Positions 1 to 17,292 of a stretch of DNA of 64,000 nt are shown piece after piece. Source of the stretch: Nocardioides sp. SYSU D00065 (GTDB taxonomy: Bacteria > Actinomycetota > Actinomycetes > Propionibacteriales > Nocardioidaceae); the NCBI RefSeq assembly GCF_017916425.1, contig NZ_JAFMSX010000002.1, forward strand, positions 614,413-678,412, in the 5' to 3' direction. Below the pieces are notes generated by a model. The model was not told the DNA's origin and searched no databases. It worked only from the letters and a program-made list of their open reading frames with translations. The position numbers and the translations under genes are program-made. Numbering within the stretch: position 1 is the stretch's first letter; each line of letters begins with the position of its first letter.

Positions 1-1221
1 TCGGGCGCGAGCCCCGACGAGTGCGTCGAGCAGATCGACATCGGCGGCCCCTCGATGGTGCGTGCCGCCGCCAAGAACCACCCGAGCGTCGCCATCGTCA
101 CCTCGCCCGCGTCGTACGACGACGTGCTGGCCGCCGTCGCGGCCGGGGGGTTCACCCTCGCCGAGCGGCAGCGCCTGGCCGCCGAGGCGTTCGTGCACAC
201 CGCGACCTACGACGTCCACGTCGCCTCCTGGATGGGCAACGTCCTGACCGACACCAGCGAGGGCTCCGGCTTCCCGGCCTGGATCGGCGCCACCTGGGAC
301 AAGCAGGCGGTGCTCCGCTACGGCGAGAACCCCCACCAGGGCGCCGCGCTGTACGCCAACGGCTTCCTGCCCGAGGGCCCCGGCCTGGCTCAGGCCACGC
401 AGCACCACGGCAAGGAGATGTCCTACAACAACTACGTCGACGCCGACGCGGCGCGCCGGGCGGCGTACGACTTCGACGAGCCGGCGGTGGCGATCATCAA
501 GCACGCCAACCCGTGCGGCATCGCGGTGGGGGACGACGTCGCCGCCGCGCACCGCAAGGCCCACGAGTGCGACCCGGTCAGCGCGTTCGGAGGCGTGATC
601 GCCACGAACGTGCCCGTCTCGGTGGCGATGGCCGAGCAGGTCGCCGAGATCTTCACCGAGGTGATCGTCGCCCCCGGCTACGAGGACGGTGCGATCGAGG
701 CGCTGCGCGCCAAGAAGAACATCCGCGTCCTGGAGTGCCCGCCGCTGGCGCGCGGGGGTGCCGAGACGCGGTCGATCTCCGGCGGCCTGCTCCTGCAGCA
801 GCGCGACGTCCTCTCCGCGGAGGGCGACGACCCGGCCACGTGGACCCTCGCCACCGGCGCCGCCGCCTCGCCCGAGGTCCTGGCCGACCTCGCCTTCGCC
901 TGGCGCGCCTGCCGCGCGGTGAAGTCCAACGCGATCCTGCTGGCCGCCGACGGCGCCTCCGTCGGCGTCGGCATGGGCCAGGTCAACCGCGTCGACTCCT
1001 GCCGGCTCGCGGTGGAACGGGCGGGGGAGCGGGCGGCCAGCGCCGTCGCGGCCTCGGACGCGTTCTTCCCGTTCGCGGACGGTCCGCAGATCCTCATCGA
1101 CGCCGGCGTGCGGGCGATCGTGCAGCCGGGCGGCTCCGTGCGCGACGCCGAGGTCGTCGCCGCGTGCGAGGCGGCGGGCGTGACGATGTACCTCACCGGC
1201 ACGCGGCACTTCTTCCACTGA
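1..1221 (+). CDS. purH: Bifunctional AICAR transformylase / IMP cyclohydrolase, 3' part
   Basis: The gene enters from the left edge; 406 codons are present of the roughly 520 usual in the family, so the N-terminal cyclohydrolase (MGS-like) domain is mostly missing from view. The visible part is the AICAR formyltransferase domain, which makes the last two steps of purine synthesis to IMP. Recognisable family blocks are [18 protein letters not shown] at the edge, [21 protein letters not shown], the catalytic Lys-His block [36 protein letters not shown] and the terminal TGTRHFFH. It ends with TGA immediately before repeat array A. The identification is firm. Confidence 0.97.
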
Positions 1222-1259: not shown

Positions 1260-1808
1260 AGCGGTGGCCCAGCCACATGCGGGCGCTGCGTGATGTGGCT
1301 GGCGCACCGCTGGGGCGGGCGACCCCGCGCGCGTCGTACGCCGAGCGGTGGCCCAGCCACATCCCGGCGCTGCGTGAGGTGGCTGGCGCACCGCCGGTGC
1401 AGGCGACACCCCTGCACTCGTACGCCGAGCGGTGGCTCAGCCACATGCGGGCTCTGCGTGATGTGGCTGGCGCACCGCCGGCGCGTGGGTACCCCCGCTC
1501 GTACGCCCAGCGGTGCCCCAGCCACATCCGGCCTTCGCGCGATGTGGCTGGCGCACCGCCGACGCGGGCACACCCGCACGTCGTACGCCGAGCGGTGGCT
1601 CAGCCACATCCGGGCGCTGCGTGATGTGGCTGACAAACCGCCGGCGCGGGCGACACCCGCGCGTCGTACGCCGAGCGGTGGCTCAGCCACATCCGGGCGC
1701 TGCGTGAGGTGGCTGGCGCACCGCCGGCGCGGGCGACACCCGCGCGTGGTACGCCGAGCGGTGCCCCAGCCACATCCGGCCCCCGCGAGATGTGGCTGGC
1801 GCACCGCC
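1260..1808. repeat. Repeat array A: seven tandem 52-bp interrupted palindromes
   Basis: This fills most of the 620-bp gap between purH and folD. Units are 1260-1311, 1344-1395, 1428-1479, 1509-1560, 1591-1642, 1674-1725 and 1757-1808, starting 81-84 bp apart. Each reads AGCGGTG, 4 nt, AGCCACAT, a 14-nt loop, ATGTGGCT (AGGTGGCT in units 2 and 6), 4 nt, CACCGCT or CACCGCC; unit 5 has a decayed right end. The left arm AGCCACAT is invariant. The 29-32 nt linkers are alike and contain a second hairpin, for example GCGCGGG/CCCGCGC at 1644-1662 and 1727-1745, and GTGCAGG/CCTGCAC at 1397-1417. Unit spacing is not a multiple of three, so the stretch is not coding. I do not recognise the family. Confidence 0.93.
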
Positions 1809-1841
1809 GGCGCGTGGAGGCGTGGCCCTAGACTGCCCGGC

Positions 1842-2690
1842 GTGACGGCACAGACCCTCGACGGGGCAGCAACCCTGCGGACCATCAAGGCGGAGCTGGC
1901 GGAGCGCGTTGCCGCGCTTCGGGAGCAGGGGGTCACCCCCGGGCTCGGCACGGTGCTGGTCGGCGACGACCCCGGCTCGCACTGGTACGTCGGCGCCAAG
2001 CACAAGGACTGCGCGGAGATCGGCATCACCTCGATCCGGCGCGACCTGCCGGCCACGGCCGACCAGGCCGAGGTGGAGGCCGTCATCGACGAGCTCAACG
2101 CCGACGACGCCTGCACCGGCTTCATCGTGCAGCAGCCCACCGGCCTCGACGAGTTCGCGCTGCTCTCGCGCGTCGACCCCGACAAGGACGTCGACGGACT
2201 GCACCCCACCAACCTCGGCAAGCTGGTCCTCGGCGAGGCCGGGCCGCTGCCGTGCACCCCCGTCGGTGCCATCGAGCTGCTGCGCCGCCACGGCGTCCAG
2301 ATCGCCGGGGCGGAGGTCGTCGTCGTCGGCCGCGGCCTCACGGTCGGCCGGCCGCTCGGCCTGCTCCTGACGCGGCGCTCGGAGAACGCGACCGTCACGC
2401 TGTGCCACACCGGCACCGTCGATCTCGCTGCGCACGTGCGCAACGCCGACATCGTCGTGGCCGCGGCCGGGGTGCCGGGGATCATCACCGCCGACATGGT
2501 CAAGCCGGGCGCCGCGGTGCTCGACGTCGGCGTCTCCCGCGTCGACGGCAAGGTCACCGGCGACGTGCACCCCGACGTGTGGGACGTGGCGGGCTGGGTC
2601 TCGCCCAACCCCAAGGGCGTCGGCCCGATGACGCGCGCGATGCTGCTGACCAACATCGTCGAGATCGCCGAGAAGTCCGTCCGGTCCTGA
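1842..2690 (+). CDS. folD: Methylenetetrahydrofolate dehydrogenase / cyclohydrolase
   Basis: FolD interconverts 5,10-methylene-, methenyl- and 10-formyl-tetrahydrofolate with NADP and so supplies one-carbon units to the adjacent purH reaction. The 282-residue length is normal. The catalytic lysine block [14 protein letters not shown] lies near residues 47-60, followed by [22 protein letters not shown], the Rossmann segment [17 protein letters not shown] and the terminal [16 protein letters not shown]. The GTG start at 1842 is chosen because a TAGACT -10-like box (1829-1834) sits 7 nt upstream, suggesting a leaderless transcript, and because family homology begins there. The reading frame stays open upstream through repeat array A, but that extension is not protein-like. 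Confidence 0.95.
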
Positions 2691-2691
2691 G

Positions 2692-3057
2692 ATGACCGAG
2701 CCGGACCGCCCTGACCACATCGAGCCGCCCGAGTCGGTCGCGCCGACCTCGGCCGAGCCGGTGGACCCGGACGAGCCCCGGCGCTACCCGTCCACGATCG
2801 GCGGCACGTTCTACCTGCTCGTGCTCGGTGCCGTCGCGGTCGCGATGGTCCTCGTCGCCGTCGGCGAGTGGCGCCCAGGCATCCGGCTGATGGGCGGCTC
2901 GCTGATCTTCGCCGCCCTCCTGCGCCTGCTGCTGAGGAGTCGCGACGCAGGGATGCTGGCGGTGCGCCACAAGCTGCTCGACGCGGCCATCCTCATCGCG
3001 TTGGGCGGGTCGCTGGTGTTCCTCGCCGGCTCCATCCCGGACCAGCCAGGCCTGTGA
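2692..3057 (+). CDS. DUF3017 family small membrane protein
   Basis: A 121-residue protein starting one base after the folD stop, so almost certainly co-transcribed with it. Residues 1-35 are acidic and proline-rich, followed by three hydrophobic segments (about residues 39-60, 66-83 and 98-114) with the basic loop LLLRSRDAGMLAVRHK between the second and third. This size, topology and position behind folD are what I know of DUF3017 proteins in actinobacteria. No function is established and none is visible in the sequence. Confidence 0.8.
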   Translation: MTEPDRPDHIEPPESVAPTSAEPVDPDEPRRYPSTIGGTFYLLVLGAVAVAMVLVAVGEWRPGIRLMGGSLIFAALLRLLLRSRDAGMLAVRHKLLDAAILIALGGSLVFLAGSIPDQPGL

Positions 3058-3077
3058 CCGTCCCCTGAACGCAGGAA

Positions 3078-3125
3078 CGGTGCGTACGGCAGGACCGGGG
3101 CGTCCCGGACCCGCCGCACGCACCG
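3078..3125. terminator. Nested hairpin between converging genes
   Basis: CGGTGCGT (3078-3085) is complementary to ACGCACCG (3118-3125), and the enclosed sequence holds a second stem, CCGGG/CCCGG around GCGT. It lies between the 3' ends of the DUF3017 gene and mdh, the expected place for a bidirectional terminator. There is no clear T-run. Confidence 0.5.
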
Positions 3126-3146
3126 TCCGGTGCTGCGGAGCAGGGC

Positions 3147-4133
3147 TCAGATGAGCCCGAGCTCGGTGACGGCCTGACGCTCGTCGGCGAGCTCCGCGGT
3201 GGAGGCGTCGATGCGGGCGCGGGAGAAGTCGTCGATGTCCAGCCCCTCGACGATCGACCAGTCACCACCGGACGTGGTGACCGGGAACGACGACACGAGG
3301 CCCTCGGGCACGCCGTACTCCCCGCGGGACACGACCGCCATCGACACCCAGTCGTCCGGCGCCGAGCCGTAGAGCCAGTCGCGGGCGGCGTCGATGGTGG
3401 CGGACGCGGCCGAGGCGGCCGAGGACGAGCCGCGGGCGTCGATGATCGCGGCACCGCGCTTGGCGACGGTCGGGATGAACGTGTTCTCGAGCCAGTCCTG
3501 GTCGCCGACCAGCTCGGCGGCGTTCTGGCCGTTGACCTCCGCGTGGAACAGGTCGGGGTACTGCGTGGCCGAGTGGTTGCCCCAGATGGTCATCTTCTTG
3601 ATGTCGGTGACCTTGGCCCCGGTCTTGGTCGCGAGCTGCGAGATCGCGCGGTTGTGGTCGAGGCGGGTGAGCGCCGAGAACCGCTCGCGCGGGATGTCGG
3701 GGGCGTTGCTCATCGCGATGAGGGCGTTGGTGTTGGCCGGGTTGCCGGTCACGCCGATGCGCACGTCGTCGGCCGCGACCGCGTTGAGGGCCTTGCCCTG
3801 GGCGGTGAAGATGGCGCCGTTGGCGGAGAGCAGGTCCCCACGCTCCATGCCGGGGCCGCGGGGGCGGGCACCGACCAGCAGGGCCAGGTTGACCCCGTCG
3901 AAGATCTTCTCGGCGTCCGCGCCGATCTCGACGCCGGCGAGGCCGGGGAACGCGCAGTCGTCGAGCTCCATGACGACGCCCTCGAGCGCCTTGAGGGCGG
4001 GCTCGATCTCGAGCAGGCGCAGCTCGATGGGCCGGTCCGCGGTCAGCGCACCGCTGGCGAGGCGGAAGAGCAGGCTGTAGCCGATCTGGCCGGCGGCGCC
4101 GGTGACGGCGACCTTGAGCGGTTCGGAGGTCAC
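3147..4133 (-). CDS. mdh: Malate dehydrogenase
   Basis: NAD-dependent malate dehydrogenase of the TCA cycle, 328 residues, cytoplasmic. The Rossmann motif GAAGQIGY lies at residues 11-18. The substrate-loop arginines are in [14 protein letters not shown], followed by [22 protein letters not shown] and the catalytic histidine block [12 protein letters not shown]. The start is GTG (complement of 4131-4133), preceded at a good distance by GAGGAG. It is a single-gene unit, divergent from the lipoprotein gene at 4247. Confidence 0.95.
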
Positions 4134-4246
4134 GGTGGTACTCCTCGTGGGTGTGCGTGGATGAGCGTGAGGGGTGCAGCCTTGCTGACGCTAGCAGCGC
4201 CGGTTCCCGCGCCGGACCCGTGGTGGCGGCTGGCATGCTGGCGCCC

Positions 4247-4951
4247 ATGCCCCGAGCCGTACGTCGCCCCCGCGCGGGCGCCGGCGTCCTCGCCGCGCTG
4301 GCCCTCGGCGTCCCCGCGCTCGCCGGGTGCGCCGGCATCGGACAGCCTGCTCCCTACGACTCGGTCGGCATCAACGGCCTGGTCATCCCCACGCCCTCGC
4401 CGGACCCCGAGGACTTCGTCGGCGGCGTCGACAACCCGTGGCTGCCGCTCGAGCCGGGAGCGACCTGGTCCTACGAGGTGACCGACGAGGGCCGCGAGAT
4501 CGGCGCCGTCGAGACCGAGGTGCTCGAGGACCCCAGCGTGGTCGCCGGTCTGGGCGCCACGGTCGTCCGCACCACCACGCGCATCGGGCGGGACGCGGCC
4601 GAGGAGACCCGGTTCTACGCCCAGGACGAGGACGGCAACGTGTGGCTGGTGGGCGCCGACGGTGCCGTCGGCAGCTGGCGCGCGGGCGAGGACGGCGCCG
4701 AGGCGGGACTCGCCATGCCGGCCGACCCGCGCCTCGGCGACGGCTGGCTGGCGTACGCCGCTCCGGGCCTGCCGCGGGCGAGCACGACCGTCGAGGACCA
4801 GTCGCGGCAGATGGTGCAGACGCGGGAGGCGGGACGCAACGAGGCCGACACCGCGACGCGCAACGTGTACGAGTCGGGTGTCGGCCTCGTCAGCGTCGAG
4901 GACCTCGACGCCGGCTGGGTGGCCCGGCGGGTGAGCGGTCCCGCGGACTAG
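4247..4951 (+). CDS. Putative secreted lipoprotein, unknown function
   Basis: A 234-residue protein with a basic N-terminus, a hydrophobic stretch and the lipobox LAGC with the acylated cysteine at about residue 28. The mature part contains VDNPWLPLEPGATWSYEV followed by alternating strand-like segments rich in Glu, Thr and Val; this opening is shared by a group of secreted actinobacterial proteins of unknown role. ATG at 4247 is preferred over the in-frame ATG at 4235 because it gives the more compact signal peptide. The stop codon overlaps that of the converging aquaporin gene in the shared tetranucleotide CTAG at 4948-4951. Confidence 0.75.
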   Translation: MPRAVRRPRAGAGVLAALALGVPALAGCAGIGQPAPYDSVGINGLVIPTPSPDPEDFVGGVDNPWLPLEPGATWSYEVTDEGREIGAVETEVLEDPSVVAGLGATVVRTTTRIGRDAAEETRFYAQDEDGNVWLVGADGAVGSWRAGEDGAEAGLAMPADPRLGDGWLAYAAPGLPRASTTVEDQSRQMVQTREAGRNEADTATRNVYESGVGLVSVEDLDAGWVARRVSGPAD

Positions 4952-6060
4952 TCGGGGCGGCGCACCTGGGTGCGGCCGTCGTCGTCGCCGTCCGGGTTGC
5001 CCCAGTGGCCGGGAGCGCTCTGCTGTCCGGGCTGGGCGCCGGGGGCCGGCGGGGCACCCCACTGGCCGGGCTGAGCCGGCTGCGTCGGCGGCTGGTAGGG
5101 CTCGGGCTGGCCCCACTGGCCGGGCTGGGCGGGCGGACCCGCGGGCGGCGCGGCCTGGGGAGCGCCGTAGGCCGGGTCGGGCTGCTGCTGCGGCGCGGGC
5201 TGGCCCCACTGCTGCTGCGGGGGAGCGCCCCAGGCGGCACCGGGCTGGCCCCAGCCACCCTGCTGGCCCTGGTTCCACTGGGCCTCGTAGTTGCCCGGGA
5301 CGAACTGGTCCTTGCGGCCGCCGCCGAAGTTGAGGCCGGAGCCGGCGACGGGCGCGGCGCCCTGTCCGAAGAGGATCGGGTAGGTGAGGCCGGCGATCGC
5401 CGCGCCGAGGAGCGGCGCCAGGACGAAGAGCCAGAGCTGGACGATCGCGTCGGTGCCGGCGAAGACGCCGGGACCGATGGAGCGGGCCGGGTTGACCGAG
5501 GTGCCCGTGGCGCTCATCGAGGCGAAGTGGATCATCGCGAGGGCGAAGCCGATGGCTAGCGGGCCGAGCGCCACGTTGACCTCGTTGCGCTCGTCGGTCA
5601 CCGCGAGGATCACCCAGAGGAAGACGGCGGTGAGCAGGATCTCGAGCAGCAGCGCGGCCCACCAGGCGTAGCCGGTGCCCTGGTCGCCGAAGAAGTTCTG
5701 GGCCATGTTGCCCTCGGCGCTGAAGCCGTCGAAGCCGTGGTTGAGCCCGAACAACGCGGCGCCGGCGAGCAGGCCGCCGAGGAGCTGGGCGGCCATGTAG
5801 ATGCCGACCTGGTTCCACGGGAGGCGACCGCCGAGCACGGCGCCCAGCGTGACCGCGGGGTTGAAGTGGCCGCCGGAGATGCGCCCCACCGCGTAGGCCA
5901 TGACCACGACGGTCAAGCCGAAGGTCAGGCCGGTGGCGACGTAGTCGCCGCCGCTGCGCATGGCTGCCCCGCAGCCGAAGAACACGAGCACGAAGGTGCC
6001 CAGCGTCTCGGCGGTGAACTTCTGTCCGGTCGTCGGCGTGTCTGCGACGGTGTCAGTCAT
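4948..6060 (-). CDS. Aquaporin (MIP family) with long Gly/Pro/Gln-rich C-terminal tail
   Basis: Residues 15-230 form a six-helix MIP channel with both NPA boxes (SGGHFNPAVT near 62-71 and TSVNPARS near 187-194). By comparison with E. coli AqpZ the selectivity filter reads Phe47, His178, Thr187 and Arg193, which predicts a water channel rather than a glycerol facilitator. Residues about 231-370 are a disordered tail built from irregular WGQP, QQQ and PPAQPGQ segments, unusual for the family and presumably cytoplasmic. The ATG start at 6060 follows GGAGGACAGCC. The gene is divergent from icd. Confidence 0.92.
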   Translation of the reverse strand: MTDTVADTPTTGQKFTAETLGTFVLVFFGCGAAMRSGGDYVATGLTFGLTVVVMAYAVGRISGGHFNPAVTLGAVLGGRLPWNQVGIYMAAQLLGGLLAGAALFGLNHGFDGFSAEGNMAQNFFGDQGTGYAWWAALLLEILLTAVFLWVILAVTDERNEVNVALGPLAIGFALAMIHFASMSATGTSVNPARSIGPGVFAGTDAIVQLWLFVLAPLLGAAIAGLTYPILFGQGAAPVAGSGLNFGGGRKDQFVPGNYEAQWNQGQQGGWGQPGAAWGAPPQQQWGQPAPQQQPDPAYGAPQAAPPAGPPAQPGQWGQPEPYQPPTQPAQPGQWGAPPAPGAQPGQQSAPGHWGNPDGDDDGRTQVRRPD

Positions 6061-6115
6061 CGTGGCTGTCCTCCAGGTCGTGGGCCGGACCCCGCGTCGG
6101 CCACGCGCACTCTAG

Positions 6116-8461
<2,346 letters not shown>

Positions 8462-8481
8462 GCGCGAGCCGCGTCACAGAC

Positions 8482-8512
8482 GGAGCCCCCGGGGAATACC
8501 CCCGAAGGCTCC
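8482..8512 (+). terminator. Terminator after icd
   Basis: GGAGCC and GGCTCC enclose a second stem, CCGGGG/CCCCCG, with an AATA loop. It lies 20 bp after the icd stop and is followed by TGTCTTG. Confidence 0.75.
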
Positions 8513-8528
8513 TGTCTTGCGCCAGGTG

Positions 8529-9764
8529 ATGACGACGACTGCCGCCACCACCGACCTTCCCGCCGACGACCTCGACGTCCCCTCGGTGACCGCCCGCCAC
8601 TTCGGCCTGGCCGTCCTCGCCCTGGCGATGGGCGGCTTCGCCATCGGCACCGCCGAGTTCGTGACGATGGGGCTGCTGCCCCAGATCGCGGGAGGCGTCG
8701 ACGTCTCGATCCCCACCGGCGGCCACGTGATCTCGGCGTACGCGGTGGGCGTGGTCGTGGGCGCGCCCGTGCTCGCCTTCCTCGGGGCGCGGCTCCCGCG
8801 CCGGGCGATGCTCGTCGCGCTGATGGCCGCCTTCGCGGTCGGCAACGGGGTGAGCGCGCTGGCGACGTCGTACGAGCAGCTGATGGTCGCCCGATTCGCG
8901 GCCGGGCTGCCGCACGGGGCGTACTTCGGTGTGGCCTCGCTCGTCGCGGCGAGCCTGGCGCGGCCGTCGCGCAAGGGGCGAGCGGTCTCGCAGGTGATGC
9001 TCGGCCTGTCCGTGGCCAACGTGCTCGGCGTGCCGGCGGCGACCGTGCTGGGCCAGGAGCTGGGCTGGCGAGCGGCCTTCTGGGCCGTCAGCGTGCTCGC
9101 GCTGCTGACGCTCGCGCTGGTGACCTGGTTCGTGCCGTCGGTCGCGGGAGACGCCGGCGCGAGCGGACGGCGCGAGCTCTCCGCCTTCGCCGTGCCCCAG
9201 GTCTGGCTGACGCTGCTGGCCGGCGCCGTCGGCTTCGGCGGCATGTTCGCGGTCTACTCCTACATCGCCCCCGTGGTCACCGACGTGGCCGGGCTGGGCG
9301 AGCGATCGGTCCCGGTCTACCTGCTGGCCTTCGGGCTCGGCATGGTGGCCGGCACCTGGGTCGCGGGGATCATGGCCGACTGGTCGATCTTCCGCTCGCT
9401 GATCATCGGCGGCACGGGCATGGCCGCGACGATGCTGGCCTTCTGGGTCGCCGCCCCGCACGGGTGGGCCGCGCTGCCGATCGTCTTCCTCATCACCACC
9501 CTCGGCTCCGTGCTGGTGGTCAACCTGCAGCTGCGACTCATGGACGTGGCCGGTGACGCCCAGACCCTGGGTGCCGCGATGAACCACGCCTCGCTCAACG
9601 TCGCCAACGCCCTCGGCGCATGGCTCGGCGGCCTCGTCATCGCCGCCGGCTGGGGCCTGCGCGCACCGGCACTGGTCGGCCTCGCGCTGTCGCTGGGCGG
9701 GGTGGCGATCCTGCTGGTGTCGGCGCGACTGCACGTGCGTCAGCGCGACGCCGCCTCGGCCTGA
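8529..9764 (+). CDS. MFS transporter, DHA1/AraJ-like exporter
   Basis: A 411-residue protein with about twelve hydrophobic helices. The first helix carries the segment GGFAIGTAEFVTMGLLPQIA typical of AraJ/DHA1-type exporters. The loop between helices 2 and 3 reads LGARLPRRAML and helix 5 contains a PAATVLGQELGWR block. Such proteins export sugars, drugs or metabolites by proton antiport; the substrate cannot be inferred. ATG 8529 is taken over TTG 8517. It is isolated, between the icd terminator and the small ORF at 9907. Confidence 0.85.
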   Translation: MTTTAATTDLPADDLDVPSVTARHFGLAVLALAMGGFAIGTAEFVTMGLLPQIAGGVDVSIPTGGHVISAYAVGVVVGAPVLAFLGARLPRRAMLVALMAAFAVGNGVSALATSYEQLMVARFAAGLPHGAYFGVASLVAASLARPSRKGRAVSQVMLGLSVANVLGVPAATVLGQELGWRAAFWAVSVLALLTLALVTWFVPSVAGDAGASGRRELSAFAVPQVWLTLLAGAVGFGGMFAVYSYIAPVVTDVAGLGERSVPVYLLAFGLGMVAGTWVAGIMADWSIFRSLIIGGTGMAATMLAFWVAAPHGWAALPIVFLITTLGSVLVVNLQLRLMDVAGDAQTLGAAMNHASLNVANALGAWLGGLVIAAGWGLRAPALVGLALSLGGVAILLVSARLHVRQRDAASA

Positions 9765-9820
9765 CCCCCGCGGGACGCGCGGCGGGTGCACGCCTTTTCC
9801 GTGCATGTTGCGTGGAGTTA

Positions 9821-9899
9821 ACACAACCGGAACCCTTGTGTAGCCCTCCTTTGTAACGATCCAATTCGTGGGGTGGACCCGCCACCCGGAGAACGGAGG
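9821..9899 (+). promoter_or_regulatory. Lower-GC leader with two small hairpins before the 51-residue ORF
   Basis: This stretch is unusually AT-rich for the window (GGAGTTAACACAACC and TTTGTAACGATCC). It holds an inverted repeat ACACAA/TTGTGT at 9821-9841 and a perfect hairpin GGGTGG/CCACCC at 9871-9887 just before the GGAGGG ribosome site at 9895-9900. A promoter with a structured leader is plausible. Confidence 0.4.
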
Positions 9900-9906
9900 G
9901 ATCAAC

Positions 9907-10062
9907 ATGGACGAGAAGCTCTCGAAGGAGATCGAGCGCCGCCGGCAGCTGGCCGACCGCAACGTGGGTGCCGTCGTGAGCCTGCTGGAGCGACGCCAGG
10001 AGCTGCGCGGGATCTACCCGATGGCCGACCTGGTCGCCGACAACGTGGGCTGGGTAGTCTGA
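9907..10062 (+). CDS. Small protein of 51 residues, unknown
   Basis: Starts MDEKLSKEIERRRQLADRN and ends with ADNVGWVV. Residues 1-33 are highly charged and predicted helical or coiled-coil; the C-terminal third is more hydrophobic. No signal peptide is present. The evidence that it is real is a strong ribosome site (GGAGGG) 6 nt before ATG 9907, typical codon use, and a distinct lower-GC leader of its own. A longer reading from ATG 9868 would lack a ribosome site. I do not recognise a family; a regulatory or adaptor role is only a guess. Confidence 0.6.
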   Translation: MDEKLSKEIERRRQLADRNVGAVVSLLERRQELRGIYPMADLVADNVGWVV

Positions 10063-10129
10063 CCTCTCCCGCGCTGGTGCTCCCGTCCCCCGTCGAGTCG
10101 CGGGGCGTCGGCGGTGAGAGACTGATCGC

Positions 10130-11149
10130 ATGTCGACCACGCCCGCCTCGCGTCCGCGGGTCCTCTCCGGCATCCAGCCGACAGCGGACTCCTTCCACCT
10201 CGGGAACTTCCTCGGGGCGCTACGCCAGTGGGTCGCACTCCAGGAGGAGTTCGAGCCCTTCTACTTCATCGCGGACCTGCACTCCATCACCGTCGAGCAC
10301 GACCCTAAGCTCCTGCGCGAGCGCACGCTGGTGTCCGTCGCGCAGCTCCTCGCCGCCGGCGTCGACCCGGCCCGCGCGACGATCTTCGTGCAGAGCCAGG
10401 TGCCTGCGCACACCCAGGCCGGCTGGGTGCTGCAGTGCCTCACGGGGTTCGGCGAGGCACGTCGGATGACGCAGTTCAAGGACAAGTCCGCCAAGGGCGG
10501 CGAGGGCGCGTCCAGCGTCGGGCTGTTCACCTATCCCATCCTCCAGGCGGCCGACATCCTGCTCTACCGGCCGCAGTACGTCCCGGTGGGGGAGGACCAG
10601 CGCCAGCACCTCGAGCTGACCCGCGACCTGGCCGCGCGCTTCAACCACCGGTTCAAGAAGACCTTCCGCGCGCCCGAGCCGTACATCCTCGAGTCGACGG
10701 CGAAGATCTACGACCTGCAGATCCCCGAGAAGCAGATGTCGAAGTCCATCGGCGGGCAGGGCTGCGTGTGGGTCCTCGACGAGCCCACCGTGGTGACCAA
10801 AAAGTTCAGGTCCGCGGTGACCGACTCGGAGACCGAGATCCGCTTCGACCGGGAGACCAAGCCCGGCGTCAGCAACCTGCTCAGCATCCACTCGGCGCTG
10901 TCGGGGGAGAAGGTCGAGGAGCTGGTCGCCTCCTTCGAGGGTCGCGGCTACGGTGACCTCAAGTCCGAGGTCGCCGAGGTGGTCCTCGGCGTGCTGACCC
11001 CGATCCGCGAGCGCACGCGCGAGCTGCTCGCCGACCGCACCGAGCTGGAGCGGATCCTCGGTGAGGGCGCCGAACGCGCGGGCGCCGTGGCGGAGGCCAC
11101 CCTGCGCGACGTCTACGACCGCGTCGGCTTCCTGCCCGCGGGTCGCTAG
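10130..11149 (+). CDS. trpS: Tryptophan--tRNA ligase
   Basis: Class I aminoacyl-tRNA synthetase charging tRNA-Trp, 339 residues, cytoplasmic. The HIGH-like motif is in [18 protein letters not shown] (residues about 13-30) and the KMSKS loop is [11 protein letters not shown]. Other family blocks are [23 protein letters not shown] and [18 protein letters not shown]. It heads a short same-strand cluster with the 2'-5' RNA ligase-like gene 10 bp downstream and the YihY gene beyond, though the former may also have its own promoter. Confidence 0.96.
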
Positions 11150-11159
11150 GGTCGCTGAC

Positions 11160-11669
11160 GTGCCGACCATCGGAGTAGCCATCGCGATCCCCGAGCCGTG
11201 GGCGAGCGAGCTGCAGGACTACCGGACCTCGATCGGCGACACGACCGCGACGCACATCCCGACCCACATCACCCTCATCCCTCCCACGGAGGTGGACGAG
11301 GCCGAGCTCCCGGCCGTGATCGAGCACCTCGGCGCGGCCGCTGCGGGCGTCGAGCCGTTCGACATCCACCTGCGCGGCACCGGCACCTTCCGCCCGGTCT
11401 CGCCGGTCGTGTTCGTCATGCTCGCCGAGGGGATCTCGGCGTGCGAGGTCCTCGCCGACGCCGTACGCCGCGGGCCGCTCGCGGTGGACCTGCACTTCCC
11501 CTACCACCCGCACGTGACCATCGCCCACCACCTCGACGACGAGGCGCTCGACCGTGCCTACGAGGACCTGGCCACCTTCGAGTGCCGCTTCGCCGTCGAC
11601 GCGTTCAGCCTCTACGTCCACGACCAGCACGCCGGCTGGCAGCCCACGCACCACTACGCGCTGGGCTGA
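11160..11669 (+). CDS. 2'-5' RNA ligase / cyclic phosphodiesterase-like protein
   Basis: A 169-residue protein of the 2H phosphoesterase superfamily. The two His-x-Thr motifs are present as THITL (near residue 38) and HPHVTIAHH (near residue 118), at the right separation for the bilobal fold. The in vivo substrate of bacterial members is uncertain: they act in vitro on tRNA halves or cyclic phosphates. GTG 11160 is chosen because a TAGGGT -10-like box overlaps the trpS stop 7 nt upstream, suggesting a leaderless transcript. The next gene follows after 3 bp. Confidence 0.85.
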   Translation: MPTIGVAIAIPEPWASELQDYRTSIGDTTATHIPTHITLIPPTEVDEAELPAVIEHLGAAAAGVEPFDIHLRGTGTFRPVSPVVFVMLAEGISACEVLADAVRRGPLAVDLHFPYHPHVTIAHHLDDEALDRAYEDLATFECRFAVDAFSLYVHDQHAGWQPTHHYALG

Positions 11670-11672
11670 GCG

Positions 11673-12722
11673 ATGTCCCTCGTCACCGCAGCCAAGCAGC
11701 GCGTCGCGCGACTGCGCGCGCGCCGGCCCGTCGTCGACCACGTCGTGCGGATGGTCGAGCACTACAACCTCGTCAAGGGCAACGCCCTCGCCGCCGCGGT
11801 GACGTACTTCGCCTTCCTCTCCTTCTTCCCCATCCTCGCGCTGTCGTTCGCGGTCTTCGGACAGGTCGCCAAGGTCTACAGCGACGCGCAGGACACCCTC
11901 GTCGACGCGGCCAACTCGGTGCTGCCGGGACTCGTCGGCGGCGACAGCGGCGTCTCGCTCGAAACCCTGCAGGCCGCGGCGCCCGGCATCTTCAGCGTCG
12001 GCATCCTGCTCACCCTCTACTCCGGGCTGGGCTGGCTCTCGGGCATGCGCGAGGCGCTCGTGGCGGTCTTCGAGGAGCCGCCGCGCGAGCAGCCGAGCTT
12101 CGTGACGGGCAAGCTGCGCGACATCCTCGCCCTGATGACGCTCGGGTCGGTGCTGGTCGTGAGCGTCGCGGTCTCGGGTGTCGCGACCAAGCTGCTGACC
12201 CCGATCCTCGAGGCGCTGTCGCTCGGGATGGTCGCCGGGGTCGTGCTCGCGACGCTGGCGGTCGTGCTGGGGCTGGCGGCCAACGCGCTGCTGTTCTTCG
12301 CGTTCTTCCGCCTGCTCGCCGCGCCCGAGGTGCCGACCCGCTCGCTCTGGTCCGGCGCGCTGCTGGGGGCGGTGGCCTTCGAGGTCCTCAAGCAGCTGTC
12401 CACCCTCCTGCTCAAGTCCACCGCGAACTCCGCCGCGTTCCAGGCCTTCGGCATCGCGCTGATCCTGCTGGTCTGGATCAACTACTTCTCCCGCGTCGTG
12501 GTCTACTCCGCCGCCTGGGCCTACACCTCGCCCCAGGCCCGCGCCGAGCGCGACGCCCGGCGCGTCGCGGACCAGATGCCGGAGGGACCGCGGATCGACC
12601 TCGCCGCGGCAGCGGGTGTCGTACGCCCGCAGGTGACGGGCGCGTCCTCACCCAGGACGGCCTTCGCAGCCGGGGCTGCCTCGATGCTGGGCCTCGTCGC
12701 CCTGCTCCGCCGGCGACGCTGA
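11673..12722 (+). CDS. YihY/BrkB-type inner membrane protein
   Basis: A 349-residue integral membrane protein with about six helices. The diagnostic N-terminal region runs NLVKGNALAAAVTYFAFLSFFPILAL, with later blocks LYSGLGWLSGMREALVAVF and LVWINYFSRVVVYSAAWA. The family was once labelled ribonuclease BN, but that assignment belongs to another protein, and no function is firmly known. The C-terminus ends in a short hydrophobic segment and RRRR. It lies 3 bp after the RNA ligase-like gene and is followed by a hairpin terminator. Confidence 0.88.
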   Translation: MSLVTAAKQRVARLRARRPVVDHVVRMVEHYNLVKGNALAAAVTYFAFLSFFPILALSFAVFGQVAKVYSDAQDTLVDAANSVLPGLVGGDSGVSLETLQAAAPGIFSVGILLTLYSGLGWLSGMREALVAVFEEPPREQPSFVTGKLRDILALMTLGSVLVVSVAVSGVATKLLTPILEALSLGMVAGVVLATLAVVLGLAANALLFFAFFRLLAAPEVPTRSLWSGALLGAVAFEVLKQLSTLLLKSTANSAAFQAFGIALILLVWINYFSRVVVYSAAWAYTSPQARAERDARRVADQMPEGPRIDLAAAAGVVRPQVTGASSPRTAFAAGAASMLGLVALLRRRR

Positions 12723-12732
12723 CCGTCTGCGC

Positions 12733-12750
12733 TCCCCGCCCGAGCGGGGA
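12733..12750 (+). terminator. Short hairpin after the YihY gene
   Basis: TCCCCGC and GCGGGGA form a perfect 7-bp stem with a CCGA loop, 10 bp after the stop codon. Confidence 0.55.
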
Positions 12751-12779
12751 CTGGGCGGTGGCTGCTTGAGCGCTGGCCG

Positions 12780-13076
12780 AGCGGTGAGTGAGCCACATCC
12801 TGGGGCTTCTGGATGTGGGTGTGGCACCGCTGGTGGTGCGTGAGCGCCTCGTGCGGGGTGGGGCGGTGAGTGAGCCACATTCTGGGGCTTCTGGATGTGG
12901 GTGTGGCACCGCTGGTGGTGCGTGAGCGCCTCGTCCGGGTCGGGGCGGTGAGTGAGCCACATCTCGAGGCTCCGTCATGTGGGTGACGCACCGCCGGTGC
13001 TCACGCATCGAAACCGGACGGTCGGACGGTGACCCAGCGGCATCCCCAGCACTCGCGAGGTGGCTCAGGCACCGCT
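12780..13076. repeat. Repeat array B: four tandem 52-bp interrupted palindromes
   Basis: Units are 12780-12831, 12862-12913, 12944-12995 and a decayed 13025-13076, with starts 81-82 bp apart. The geometry is the same as array A (7-4-8-14-8-4-7). The array-specific right inner arm is ATGTGGGT and the 4-nt bulges differ (AGTG on the left, GTGG on the right in units 1 and 2). The loop is CCTGGGGCTTCTGG in unit 1. The linker between units 1-2 and 2-3 starts GGTGGTGCGTGAGCGCCTCG and is shared. The array fills the gap between the YihY gene and the nuclease remnant; 13077-13190 shows nothing else recognisable. Confidence 0.9.
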
Positions 13077-13190
13077 GCGTACGTCGGCACGCGAGCCGCG
13101 AACCGTCCACAGCCTCGATCACCTCGATCGCATCCACAGGCGCGGCCCGTACCGGCGACGGACGTGCGTCGTCGCGCGTCGAATGGGCCG

Positions 13191-14139
13191 ATGTCGACCG
13201 TCCCTGATGACCTGTTCCACCGACCCATCGCCCGCGCCGAGGCCCTGGCATCGGGCCTGACCCCACGAATGCTGGAGGGTGTGCGGTTTCGCCGTCTCCA
13301 TCACGGCGTCTACTGCGCCCGCGACCACCTCCTCACGTGGGAGGAGCGGTTGGAAGCCGCCCGTCTCGCCCTGCCGGACTCCGCGAGGACGACCGGAGCC
13401 ACGCGGCTGAGGCAGCTGGGTTTCGAGGTCGGTGCGCCACTTCCACTGCACTTCGTCGTCGAGGGCGACCTGCACCTGGCGCTGGACGGGGTGTTCCTGC
13501 ACCGCACGGTCAAGATGCCTCCGCACGACGACGAGGGCGTCTCTGCTGAAGCGGCCTACGTGGCGTTCTGCGCCGAGACGCGGACCATCGAAGCGATCAA
13601 GGTCGGGTGCGCGATGATGCATGCCGCGCAGCTCGACCCGTACCTGCTCGAGCGGATGCTCGACGAGGAGAAGTGGCGACGCGGCGTGCCGGAGACGGCG
13701 TACGTCCTGCCGTTCCTCGACGACCGGTGCAGGTCGATGCCCGAGGCGAAGCTCCTCGCGTACGTCGTCGCAGCAGGTCTGCCGGCCCCCGAAGTCAACC
13801 GCACGGTCGAGGTCGCGCCTGGCGTCGTGCTGACGCCGGACCAGTGGTACGGGCCTCACGAGGTGGCGATCGAGTACGAGGGCAGCCAGCACCAGGAGCA
13901 CCGCGGCCAGTACAACGCCGACATCGACCGGTACTCCCTGTATCGCCGGCACGGCGTCGCGTACGAGCTCGTTCGTCACCCGCGAACGGATGCGTTCCCC
14001 CAAGTCCACGGTTCGGCTGGTGCACGCCGCGCTCGTGGCGCGAGGCTACGACGGCCCAGAACCGGACTTCGGGTCCGGCTGGACGTCCCTGTTCCGGCCG
14101 CTCTCCGACGTCGTACGGCGGCGGTATCGCGCCGCGTGA
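13191..14139 (+). pseudogene. Vsr-like (DUF559-type) nuclease gene with N-terminal winged-helix-like region, frameshifted
   Basis: The reading from ATG 13191 gives an AbiEi-like N-terminal segment (LASGLTPRMLEG then VRFRRLHHGVYC) followed by a PD-(D/E)XK-type region: SMPEAKLLAYVVAAGL, VVLTPDQWYG, VAIEYEGSQHQEHRGQYNADIDR. Near position 13975 the protein-like frame switches to +1. There the sequence continues TRERMRSPKSTV and RGYDGPEPDFGSGW to TGA at 14137-14139, the ending I expect for this family. The original frame beyond this point has poor G/C at third positions and runs into repeat array C. A one-base insertion or two-base deletion, or a sequencing error, explains this. Such proteins occur in many copies in Nocardioides-like genomes; their role is unproven. 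It is bracketed by arrays B and C. Confidence 0.75.
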
Positions 14140-14147
14140 CCCAGGCC

Positions 14148-14442
14148 AGCGGTGCGTGAGCCACATCGAGCGGCTCCGGAATGTGGCTGGGACACCGCTA
14201 GGGGCAGCAGCGGGGCCGCGATCCGCGTCAGCGGTGCGTCAGCCACATCGGGCGGTCCTGGGACGTGGCTGGCTCACCGCCGGACCCAGCACCAAGGCCG
14301 CGATCCGCGTCAGCGGTGCGTCAGCCACATCGGGCGGTCCCGGAATGTGGCTGGCTCACCGCCGGGCCAGCACCAGGGCCGTGACAGGCTAGCGGTGCGT
14401 GAGCCACATCGGGCAGCCCTGGGATGTGGCTGGCTCACCGCT
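14148..14442. repeat. Repeat array C: four tandem 52-bp interrupted palindromes
   Basis: Units are 14148-14199, 14230-14281, 14312-14363 and 14391-14442, with starts 79-82 bp apart. All four keep the left arms AGCGGTG and AGCCACAT and the 7-4-8-14-8-4-7 geometry; right inner arms are ATGTGGCT or ACGTGGCT. Linkers between the first three units share GGCCGCGATCCGCGTC. The first unit starts 8 bp after the restored stop of the nuclease remnant, and the array ends 20 bp before the sdhB terminator. Confidence 0.92.
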
Positions 14443-14462: not shown

Positions 14463-14491
14463 CGAGGGCCGGGGGAGACCCCCGGCCCTCG
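14463..14491. terminator. Strong hairpin terminator of the sdh operon
   Basis: CGAGGGCCGGGGG and CCCCCGGCCCTCG form a perfect 13-bp stem with an AGA loop, 15 bp beyond the sdhB stop. No T-run is present, which is common in such GC-rich genomes. Confidence 0.8.
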
Positions 14492-14506: not shown

Positions 14507-15250
14507 TCAGTGGCCGTGCCTGATGGCCGTGCGCAGGTCCTTGTTGAGCTGCGAGATCACGTCGAGCGGGATCTCCTTGGGGCAGGCGGCCGTGCAGGCG
14601 CCGATGTTGGTGCAGCCGCCGAAGCCCTCGTGGTCGTGCTGGGCGACCATGTTGACCACGCGCTCGTCGCGCTCGGGCTGGCCCTGGGGCAACAGCCCCA
14701 GGTGGGTGACCTTGGCGCCCATGAACAGCGAGGCCGACCCGTTGGGGCAGGCCGCGACGCAGGCGCCGCACTGGATGCAGGTCGCGACGTTGAAGGCCCG
14801 GTCGGCGTCCTCCTTGGGCACCGGCACGGAGTGCGCCTCGGGCGCCGAGCCGGTGTTGACGGAGATGTAGCCGCCGGCCTGGACGATCCGGTCCAGGGCG
14901 CCGCGGTCGACGACGAGGTCCTTGATGACCGGGAACGCGTCCGAGCGCCACGGCTCGATGGTGATGGTCTCGCCGTCCTTGAACGAGCGCATGTGCAGCT
15001 GGCAGGTCGTGGTGACCTCGGGCCCGTGCGCGTCGCCGTTGATCATCAGGCCGCAGGTGCCGCAGATGCCCTCGCGACAGTCGGAGTCGAAGGCGATCGG
15101 CTCCTCGCCCTTGTCGTTGAGCTGCTCGTTGAGCACGTCGAGCATCTCCAGGAACGACATGTCCGGCGAGACGTCGGCGACCTCGTAGGTGTGCATGGCG
15201 CCGGGGGTGTCCCGGTCGGGCTGCCGCCAGATCTTCAGGGTCAGGTTCAT
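14507..15250 (-). CDS. sdhB: Succinate dehydrogenase iron-sulfur subunit
   Basis: A 247-residue electron-transfer subunit of complex II. The [2Fe-2S] ferredoxin domain carries [16 protein letters not shown]. The C-terminal domain has two cysteine clusters, [12 protein letters not shown] and [12 protein letters not shown], for the remaining Fe-S centres. The second cluster type and the subunit sizes fit the Corynebacterium/Bacillus-like SdhCAB enzyme. ATG 15250 is chosen because the family N-terminus [10 protein letters not shown] begins there, just 2 bp after the sdhA stop. It is the last gene of sdhC-sdhA-sdhB. Confidence 0.95.
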
Positions 15251-15252
15251 GC

Positions 15253-17292
15253 TCACTTGTAGCTCCGCTGCTTCATCTCGATGGCGGTGTAGACCAGGTC
15301 TTCCTTGTGCAGGATCGGGCGCTCGTCCAGCCCGGCCCACTCCCACGCCGCGACGTAGGCGAACTCGTCGTCGTGGCGCATCGCCTCGCCGTCCTCGGTC
15401 TGCGACTCGGCGCGGAAGTGGCCGCCGCAGGACTCGCGCCGGTTGAGCGCGTCGATGCACATCAGCTCGCCGAGCTCGAAGAAGTCGGCCACGCGGCCGG
15501 CCTTCTCGAGCGACTGGTTGAGCGACTCGGAGCTGCCGAGCACCTTGACGTTGCGGTAGAAGTCGTCGCGCAGGCCGCGGATGAGGTCGATGGCCTTCTT
15601 GAGCCCGTCCTCGCTGCGCTCCATCCCGCAGTACTCCCACATGATGTTGCCGAGCTCGCGGTGGTAGGAGTCGACGCTGCGGGTGCCGTTCACGGTGAGG
15701 AAGTGCTCGATGCGCTCGCGGACGGACTGCTGCGCCTCCACGACGGCGGGGTGGTCCTCACCGATCGGCTCGAAGGGCCCGTCGGCGAGGTAGTCGCGGA
15801 TCGTGTGGGGCAGCACGAAGTACCCGTCGGCCAGGCCCTGCATCAGCGCCGAGGCCCCGAGCCGGTTGGCGCCGTGGTCGGAGAAGTTCGCCTCACCGGT
15901 CACGAACAGCCCCGGGATCGTGGACTGCAGGTCGTAGTCGACCCACAGGCCGCCCATGACGTAGTGCACGGCGGGGTAGATGCGCATCGGCACCGAGTAG
16001 GGGTCCTCCCCGGTGATCCGGGCGTACATGTCGAACAGGTTGCCGTACTTGTTGGCGACCGCCTCCAGGCCCAGACGCTCGATCGCGTCGGCGAAGTCGA
16101 GGTACACCCCGCGCCGTACGCCGTCGACCTCGGGCCCGACGCCGCGACCCTCGTCGCAGACGTTCTTCGCGGCCCGCGAGGCGATGTCGCGGGGGACCAG
16201 GTTGCCGAACGAGGGGTAGATCCGCTCCAGGTAGTAGTCGCGGTCCTCCTCCGGGATGTCGCGCGGGTCCTTGTCGCAGTCGGCCTGGTTCTTCGGCACC
16301 CAGATGCGACCGTCGTTGCGCAGCGACTCCGACATGAGGGTCAGCTTGGACTGGTGCGAGCCGGAGACCGGGATGCAGGTCGGGTGGATCTGCGTGTAGC
16401 AGGGGTTGGCCATGTAGGCGCCCTTGCGGTGCGCGCGCCACGCGGCGGTGACGTTGGAGCCCATCGCGTTGGTGGACAGGTAGAACACGTTGCCGTAGCC
16501 GCCGGAGGCGATGACGACGACGTCGGCGAGGTGGGTCTGGATCTCGCCGGTGACCATGTCGCGGGCGATGATGCCGCGCGCCTTGCCGTCGACGACGATC
16601 AGCTCGAGCATCTCGTGGCGCGCGTACATCGTGACGGTGCCGGCGGAGACCTGCCGCTCGAGCGCCTGGTAGGCGCCGATCAGCAGCTGCTGGCCGGTCT
16701 GGCCGCGGGCGTAGAAGGTGCGCGAGACCTGGACGCCGCCGAAGGAGCGGTTGTCGAGGAGACCGCCGTACTCGCGGGCGAAGGGCACGCCCTGGGCGAC
16801 GCACTGGTCGATGATGTTGGTGCTGACCTCGGCCAGGCGGTAGACGTTGGACTCGCGCGAGCGGTAGTCGCCGCCCTTGACGGTGTCGTAGAAGAGGCGG
16901 TGGACGGAGTCGCCGTCCTCCTTGTAGTTCTTGGCGGCGTTGATGCCGCCCTGCGCGGCGATCGAGTGCGCCCGGCGCGGGGAGTCCTGGTAGCAGAACG
17001 TCTTGACGTTGTAGCCGGCCTCGCCGAGCGTCGCGGCGGCCGAGGCGCCGGCGAGCCCGGTGCCGACCATGATGACGGAGAGCTTGCGCCGGTTGGCCGG
17101 GTTGACCAGTCGCGCCTCGAACTTGCGAGTCGACCAGCGCTCTGAGATCGGGCCGCCGGGGGCCTTGGAGTCGATGATCGGCTCGCCCGGCGTGTAGTAG
17201 CCGGCCGCGTCGTCGTGCTCGCCGTCGGCGATCCCGGAGGTGGGGGCCTCGGTGGAGGTGACGGTGTCGGTCGTGTCCATGTCGTGGCTCAC
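15253..17292 (-). CDS. sdhA: Succinate dehydrogenase flavoprotein subunit
   Basis: The catalytic subunit oxidising succinate to fumarate, 679 residues. The FAD dinucleotide fold is [19 protein letters not shown]. The covalent FAD histidine lies in [16 protein letters not shown]. The active-site region reads [10 protein letters not shown], and the FAD-binding C-terminal part has [23 protein letters not shown]. About 60 residues of acidic N-terminal extension precede the fold. GTG 17292 is preferred to ATG 17280 because AAGGGG (overlapping the sdhC stop) lies 10 nt before the GTG but 22 nt before the ATG. It is co-transcribed with sdhC (14-bp gap) and sdhB (2-bp gap). Confidence 0.94.

Follow-up and report, generated by a model that had tools for sequence, protein, structure and literature searches.

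Helically phased inverted repeats in arrays at gene 3' ends of Nocardioides, putative double-stranded binding sites of a sequence-specific protein

Short palindromic repeats between bacterial genes have been known for decades, with roles that are still unclear. Phased cooperative operator arrays, such as those of LacR loops and BldC repeats, place their sites on one face of the helix and thereby let the bound proteins contact one another, and integron attC sites carry the R box RYYYAAC/GTTRRRY. Repetitive extragenic palindromic (REP) sequences, in the portions of the sources available to us, are palindromes of 20-40 bp that carry the tetranucleotide GTAG or CGTC on one side, and those of the GTAG type go with a REP-associated tyrosine (RAYT, Y1) transposase (PMC3733652; REP features were also drawn from PMC1525189). 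Tandem repeats of a constant 52 nt were described in Bacillus and other Firmicutes by Subirana and Messeguer in 2021 (PMC8161180); their search needed at least four repeats and, in the accessible parts of that paper, 52-nt repeats are reported in Firmicutes only, two sizes only are given (20-21 and 52 nt) and a protein polymerising on DNA is suggested. Here, we report a family of 52-bp palindromic units in Nocardioides sp. SYSU D00065, found in a stretch of 64,000 nucleotides (contig NZ_JAFMSX010000002.1, positions 614,413 to 678,412, forward strand; this whole stretch is called the window below). The units stand in short intergenic arrays and are spaced by whole turns of the DNA helix. Judging from sequence, we lean towards reading the arrays as double-stranded binding sites for a putative sequence-specific protein that would cover the 3' ends of genes and form a boundary between transcription units. 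The literature that we searched, with most subscription papers outside the search, gave no description of the repeat family, and the part of PMC12306157 at hand contains nothing on this group.

The three arrays of the window are as follows; none of them is assigned a strand.

1260..1808, no strand: array 1, seven 52-bp units (1260-1311, 1344-1395, 1428-1479, 1509-1560, 1591-1642, 1674-1725, 1757-1808) between purH and folD; spacings 84, 84, 81, 82, 83 and 83
1312..1343, no strand: example linker, 32 bp separating two 52-bp units of array 1
12780..13076, no strand: array 2, four units (12780-12831, 12862-12913, 12944-12995 and the degenerate 13025-13076); spacings 82, 82 and 81
14148..14442, no strand: array 3, four units (14148-14199, 14230-14281, 14312-14363, 14391-14442), with convergent genes on either side; spacings 82, 82 and 79

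An earlier note, made from the letters of the window, had placed fifteen units of 52 bp at these positions, and this was borne out: the full pattern with at most three mismatches finds 14 of the 15 units and none in 100 shuffles, and the inner motif finds all 15 (shuffle mean 0.05). Its left inner arm AGCCACAT, said to be invariant in 14 of 15 copies, is indeed so, and the loops and linkers are specific to each array as it had described. It was wrong in calling the 4x4 bulge never complementary, as only three of the 15 units lack any possible Watson-Crick pair and the other 12 have one to three. Within the proposed 7-bp outer arm AGCGGTG, GCGGTG is constant; the first base is mostly A or G. 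Taken together with the arrays of the whole genome and of relatives, the unit is best written as an inverted pair of half-sites of about 20 bp, GCGGTG-N4-AG-(5-base word)-TYC, separated by a spacer that is about 10 bp long or, in some species, about 20 bp. The spacing between units, missing from the earlier note, proved the most telling feature.

We pooled 262 centre-to-centre spacings from the arrays of this genome, from relatives with the same word and from relatives with other words. Almost all of them (259/262) fall into four classes with means of 61.67, 72.16, 82.27 and 92.00 bp and standard deviations (SDs) of 0.64-1.07 bp, and these means equal 6, 7, 8 and 9 times 10.22-10.31 bp, i.e., turns of about 10.28 bp. 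Because 23 of the 36 bp in the range 59-95 lie inside the class windows, it is the narrow SDs and the test with one value per array that carry the weight. This test, with a single value for each class in an array, fits best at a period of 10.25 bp, or at 10.05 bp for the 43 values outside the 82-bp class; 37 of these 43 differ from 82.3 by whole 10.4-bp turns to within 1.5 bp (expected 29%, p 9e-15), and the mean cosine of the phase test was reached by none of 100,000 uniform draws. Since the units sit six to nine turns apart, equivalent points of the units would face the same side of the helix, and the spacing rule alone predicts that all units lie on one face of the DNA. Loci shared with relatives keep to the same steps: of the 20 loci of this genome for which a relative has a counterpart, eight show another spacing class there, shifted by about 10 or 20 bp (61-62 here versus 83 at L104, 92 versus 82 at L125, and 82 versus 72 at L124 and L112), and one relative has an out-of-phase spacing of 88 at L114. 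Orthologous loci that have the same repeat frame and differ in word, copy number and spacing class form a natural experiment.

The family is abundant in the genome (3.87 Mb, 8 contigs), where the exact half-pattern matches 97 times forward and 96 times reverse and the reversed pattern does not match at all. Thirty stretches were fetched around the matches and added to the window; as they cover 90/97 forward and 92/96 reverse matches, the set lacks a few arrays. It contains 152 units in 34 intergenic arrays, which is a minimum number because one or more degenerate units, among them that at 2948 of L113, escaped our scanner. Most of the arrays have four to seven units (28/34), five have two or three, and one is a single unit; in the named relatives, 33 of 46 arrays have two units, and this contrast supports the array-wise amplification in place that had been proposed from the window. 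The strict 52-bp size proposed at the same time holds within this genome, with 150 of 152 units keeping the 4-8-14-8-4 plan, but not across species. Units are 52-53 bp in most species and about 61-64 bp in the genomes G043, G098 and G181, where the extra turn is central: the inner gap is 24-25 in most species, 33-35 in all 11 units of G043 and 35 in 20 of the 22 units of G098. The arm sequence is kept while loops, spacers and copy number diverge, and all 34 arrays use one inner word, with single-base variants, despite their differing loops and linkers. We also looked for other unit types in 400 kb of contig C1 sampled at regular steps. Every exact 50-bp GCGGTG..CACCGC span in this sample (four arrays) and in the window (three arrays) carries the AGCCACAT word, and six other GCGGTG..CACCGC spans in the sample (52-54 or 62 bp) are without the AG of the frame.

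A palindrome at a gene end could be a transcribed RNA hairpin, i.e., a 3' untranslated stem that ends transcription in both directions or shields mRNA ends. We consider this explanation unlikely. In its favor, three units are predicted to fold as RNA at -28 to -37 kcal/mol, the arrays lie at gene 3' ends and between convergent genes, and the arms change jointly between lineages and arrays. The spacing, however, follows double-stranded DNA, and to our knowledge there is no reason for RNA hairpins to obey steps of a helical turn. The arm changes also speak against a stem. In the AGCCACAT set (119 arrays, one unit each), there are 29 left and 48 right arm changes; both sides are changed in four (expected 2.85), and two are compensated (expected 1.98). 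Of 69 single-arm changes, 7 give G-T where random changes would give 11.5, C-C and G-G are the commonest outcomes, and covariation in the window alignment was not above that of shuffles. Since the changes are uncompensated and show no G-T excess, each half within this set appears to be kept as a sequence and not as half of a stem. Moreover, a stem does not need one word common to 34 arrays.

Much the same evidence bears on folded DNA, i.e., cruciforms or single-strand hairpins (attC-like) as sites for a recombinase or nuclease. The unit does have the form of a two-arm hairpin with an internal region, the word changes are symmetric, and the N4 positions of this genome pair less often than by chance, with 0.65 of 4 pairs versus 1.73 expected (34 arrays, one unit each; 0/5000 shuffles; two units of other measured length are left out of the pair counts). 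This mismatch is not kept in relatives, where 1.61 pairs are found versus 1.41 expected (46 arrays), the loop length jumps by one helical turn, C-C and G-G changes in a single arm are tolerated, and the GTTRRRY box is not present. Folded DNA of this kind seems to us highly improbable. The earlier note had left folded RNA, a cruciform and a protein-binding site side by side, and the helical phasing, the uncompensated arm changes in the main word and the single inner word favor the last; the first two keep some support from the stable predicted folds and from the arms that change together across lineages and arrays. Of the covariation and the size constraint by which the earlier note was to be judged, we find the strict size rule but no covariation within the AGCCACAT set.

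Other lineages, located by patterns or models in which the outer box is fixed, keep GCGGTG and vary in their inner word (CAACC, CCACC, CGTCC, CGACC and others). Some relatives carry ACATG, GCAGG or GGGGA words at the sdhB locus described below, and one genome (G165) has AGCCACAT elsewhere. Linker lengths cluster near 10, 20, 30 and 40 bp. In their main length classes, the linkers of this genome show neither a consensus nor a dyad, and the relatives' 33-bp linkers have a consensus and a conserved dyad. Of the 33 arrays with two or more units in this genome, 17 have GTAC in a linker, and its density in linkers is 16.1 per kb versus 1.9 in other intergenic DNA (about nine times commoner); our former view that linker sequence is free was dropped once this enrichment was found. 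In relatives, GTAC is seen mostly near the linker center, inside a dyad like CGTGTCG..CGACACG.

With genes called by a simple purpose-made codon model, the 34 arrays of this genome lie at gene 3' ends, 22 in convergent gaps, 12 in tandem gaps and none in divergent gaps. Compared with array-free gaps of at least 60 bp in the window, there is an excess of convergent gaps (p 7e-5) and a deficit of divergent ones (p 4e-5). In unselected DNA of the same genome (464 kb), gaps of at least 60 bp without an array are convergent in 15 cases, tandem in 87 and divergent in 57, and gaps with an array are convergent in three, tandem in four and divergent in none. Relatives with the same word (88 arrays; their named set and the genome G019 partly overlap) have 59 convergent, 24 tandem and no divergent arrays, and five that are unclassed or overlap a called gene. 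An early generalization that the arrays are never divergent was rejected, as it fails outside this clade. Five of the 16 array groups of G195 lie between divergent genes, where they occupy four gaps (L289, L291, L294, L297), and this differs from the clade studied here; they may be in regulatory use there, and the role of the family may therefore be broader than gene 3' ends.

The genes around the three arrays are listed next, with the names purH, folD, YhjD-like and sdhB given by our recognition of the open reading frames (ORFs).

55..1221, + strand: presumably purH (AICARFT/IMPCHase), with its 3' end abutting array 1 across a 38-bp gap
1842..2690, + strand: ORF that we take to be folD, starting 33 bp past array 1; an orthologue is present in 22/22 relatives
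11673..12722, + strand: membrane protein gene, which we assume to be YhjD-like, upstream of array 2
13191..14159, + strand: fast-evolving ORF between arrays 2 and 3
14507..15256, - strand: ORF that we take to be sdhB, converging on array 3

Pfam PF01808 matches one of the 62 scanned array-flanking proteins, and we assume that this match belongs to the ORF at 55..1221. A relative's array stands beside the same gene at 20 of the 34 arrays (88 sampled), with both flanking genes shared in 14 and protein identity of about 55-98%. Array 2 is one of these loci, where relatives have arrays with the same two flanking genes. At folD, only one of 22 relatives (G012) has a unit in the upstream gap, single and degenerate, compared with seven units here, so that array 1 seems to have expanded at this site. 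The sdhB locus was reached via the gene and not via the motif, in 30 relatives (27 picked as array-bearing and three as without matches), and a family unit lies within 330 bp of the stop in 21 of the 30; three of these 21 have other words and were detected by the outer boxes alone. Nocardioides without the family at this 3' end (L351, L352, L355, L357) have other long inverted repeats there, e.g., CCGAGTCGGCGCCAGAT... and CGGGACGTTTCTGCCC..., which are possibly parallel families. A separate GC-rich hairpin is located at about 14463-14491, between the sdhB stop and array 3. The ORF at 13191..14159 has 55-69% identity to relatives versus 84-91% for sdhB; it gave a weak AbiEi_3_N match (E 0.19, below the cut-off) and matched only itself in a search of its own genome. 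Arrays are found on both sides of it here and in several relatives (L031, L035, L049, L059, L152).

Absence of the pattern elsewhere would have told against the earlier note, and it was not what we found: a covariance model matches 59 of 196 genus genomes, this one included, and all 41 stretches with an exact match in named genomes are Nocardioides. Of the 341 genomes of the family, 78 match the generic pattern; they belong to 5 of 26 genera, and 61 of them match at least twice. The reversed control in the same 341 genomes never matched a genome more than once and did so in 18 genomes. In a phylum sample of 396 genomes, more than one match was found in this genome only, and four of the 395 others had one match each, which is below the 10 genomes with one reversed-control match. 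Array 1 had no match in phage and plasmid sequences at blastn sensitivity, and the exact full pattern had none in viral contigs.

Several points weigh against the binding-site reading. Three spacings (77, 77 and 88) are out of phase, and shared descent could be partly behind the spacing classes. The excess of convergent gaps depends on the fetched set, because the arrays of the unselected sample are four tandem and three convergent. In lineages with other words (68 array groups, some of which may be chance matches of a loose scanner), nine groups are divergent, 27 convergent, 23 tandem and nine unclassed or overlapping a called gene; the divergent groups speak against a role at 3' ends alone. 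A separate hairpin precedes the array at 19 of the 39 gene ends that lie at least 25 bp from an array and could be tested, so that the arrays need not be the terminator; this also speaks against RNA hairpins. Among array-free control ends, 22 of 30 convergent ones and 35 of 87 tandem ones have a hairpin within 100 nt. Linkers are not free, as shown by the conserved dyad in relatives and the GTAC enrichment here. Most of the relatives' arrays were found through the arm sequence, and conservation of the arms there is therefore biased. At loci that were chosen by a palindromic pattern or model (63 arrays), the left and right words agree in 4.84 of 5 positions; shuffling over all gives 4.03 and shuffling within genomes 4.50, and the observed value was reached by 0 and 1 of 3000 shuffles, respectively. 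A scanner that keeps only units with some inner match gave 4.63 versus 3.30 (101 arrays). Such agreement is expected of a dimer that reads both halves, but also of a stem. Finally, the binding protein is only postulated, and a scan of 62 of the 67 genes flanking the arrays of this genome for a candidate binder gave no family with more than two members.

We still prefer the dimer over the stem because of the helical lattice, the lack of wobble excess and the single word in the arrays of this genome. In the mechanism that we propose, a dimer would bind each unit, neighboring dimers would contact each other on one face of the DNA, and copy number would thereby set the strength. The box GCGGTG, which is constant, would be read by one surface of the protein and the swappable 5-base word by another, and word changes would follow changes of the protein or of its paralogue. 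As a guess, the bound array may fence genes off transcriptionally or topologically, mainly where they converge. If true, this would mean a hitherto unknown chromosome-boundary protein and a possible explanation of the constant-size tandem repeats of Bacillus.

Compared with known systems, the arrays are like phased operators in that the sites would be on one helical face. They differ in lying at dozens of gene-end loci and not at promoters, in their inverted 20-bp half-sites with a swappable word and in having a hypothetical binder. The outer box is GCGGTG/CACCGC, unlike that of integron attC. CRISPR arrays have near-identical repeats and unrelated spacers; here, the linkers are alike within an array and the loops vary (cas genes were not searched for). 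Rfam gave no match above the gathering score in the window.

The arrays also resemble REP and BIME (bacterial interspersed mosaic element) palindromes. If the units were selfish palindromes moved by a transposase and surviving at harmless gene ends, the phasing would be a by-product of copying. Copy number, clustering and the 3'-end bias, mainly in convergent or co-directional gaps, are as in REPs as far as the available text of PMC3733652 goes, and the folD gap, empty of units in nearly all relatives, would fit. On the other hand, the units are 52 bp (elsewhere 53 or about 61-64) and not 20-40 bp, and directly beside the 152 units the tetranucleotide GTAG is found at none and CGTC at four. 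The Y1 transposase (PF01797) was found in none of 21 genomes (this one and 20 array-bearing relatives), with the control positive in 5 of 14 genomes. The spacing in whole turns, the frame that is constant across genera and the many positions conserved across species are also unlike REPs, and common arms with differing loops and linkers are not those of recent copies. We therefore regard a mobile origin of this type as improbable.

The closest counterpart, on the parts of PMC8161180 that we could consult, is the 52-nt repeat of Firmicutes. Both families form many short noncoding arrays per genome with a constant period and variable sequence, and both have short conserved signals, often together with their reverse; in the Firmicute repeats these signals are species-specific, and here they are the inverted GCGGTG and AG-word boxes. 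By our analysis of Table 1 of that paper, 14 of 27 consensus repeats hold an inverted repeat (p<0.05 by shuffling; 1.4 expected); its accessible parts contain no such analysis. The Firmicute repeats keep to 52 +/- 1 nt, whereas the periods here are 61-62, 72, 82 and 92 on a helical lattice, and here the unit frame is constant across genera and two-unit arrays are common. Yet 52 nt is close to five turns, one step below the 62-72-82-92 series. It is tentatively suggested, as a possibility to which we give less credence than to the binding sites as such, that the arrays are a new chromosomal nucleoprotein array, in which a Nocardioidaceae protein family with one constant and one swappable DNA-reading surface would occupy half-sites on a 10.28-bp lattice as a fence at gene 3' ends, with the Bacillus 52-nt repeats as its five-turn Firmicute counterpart.

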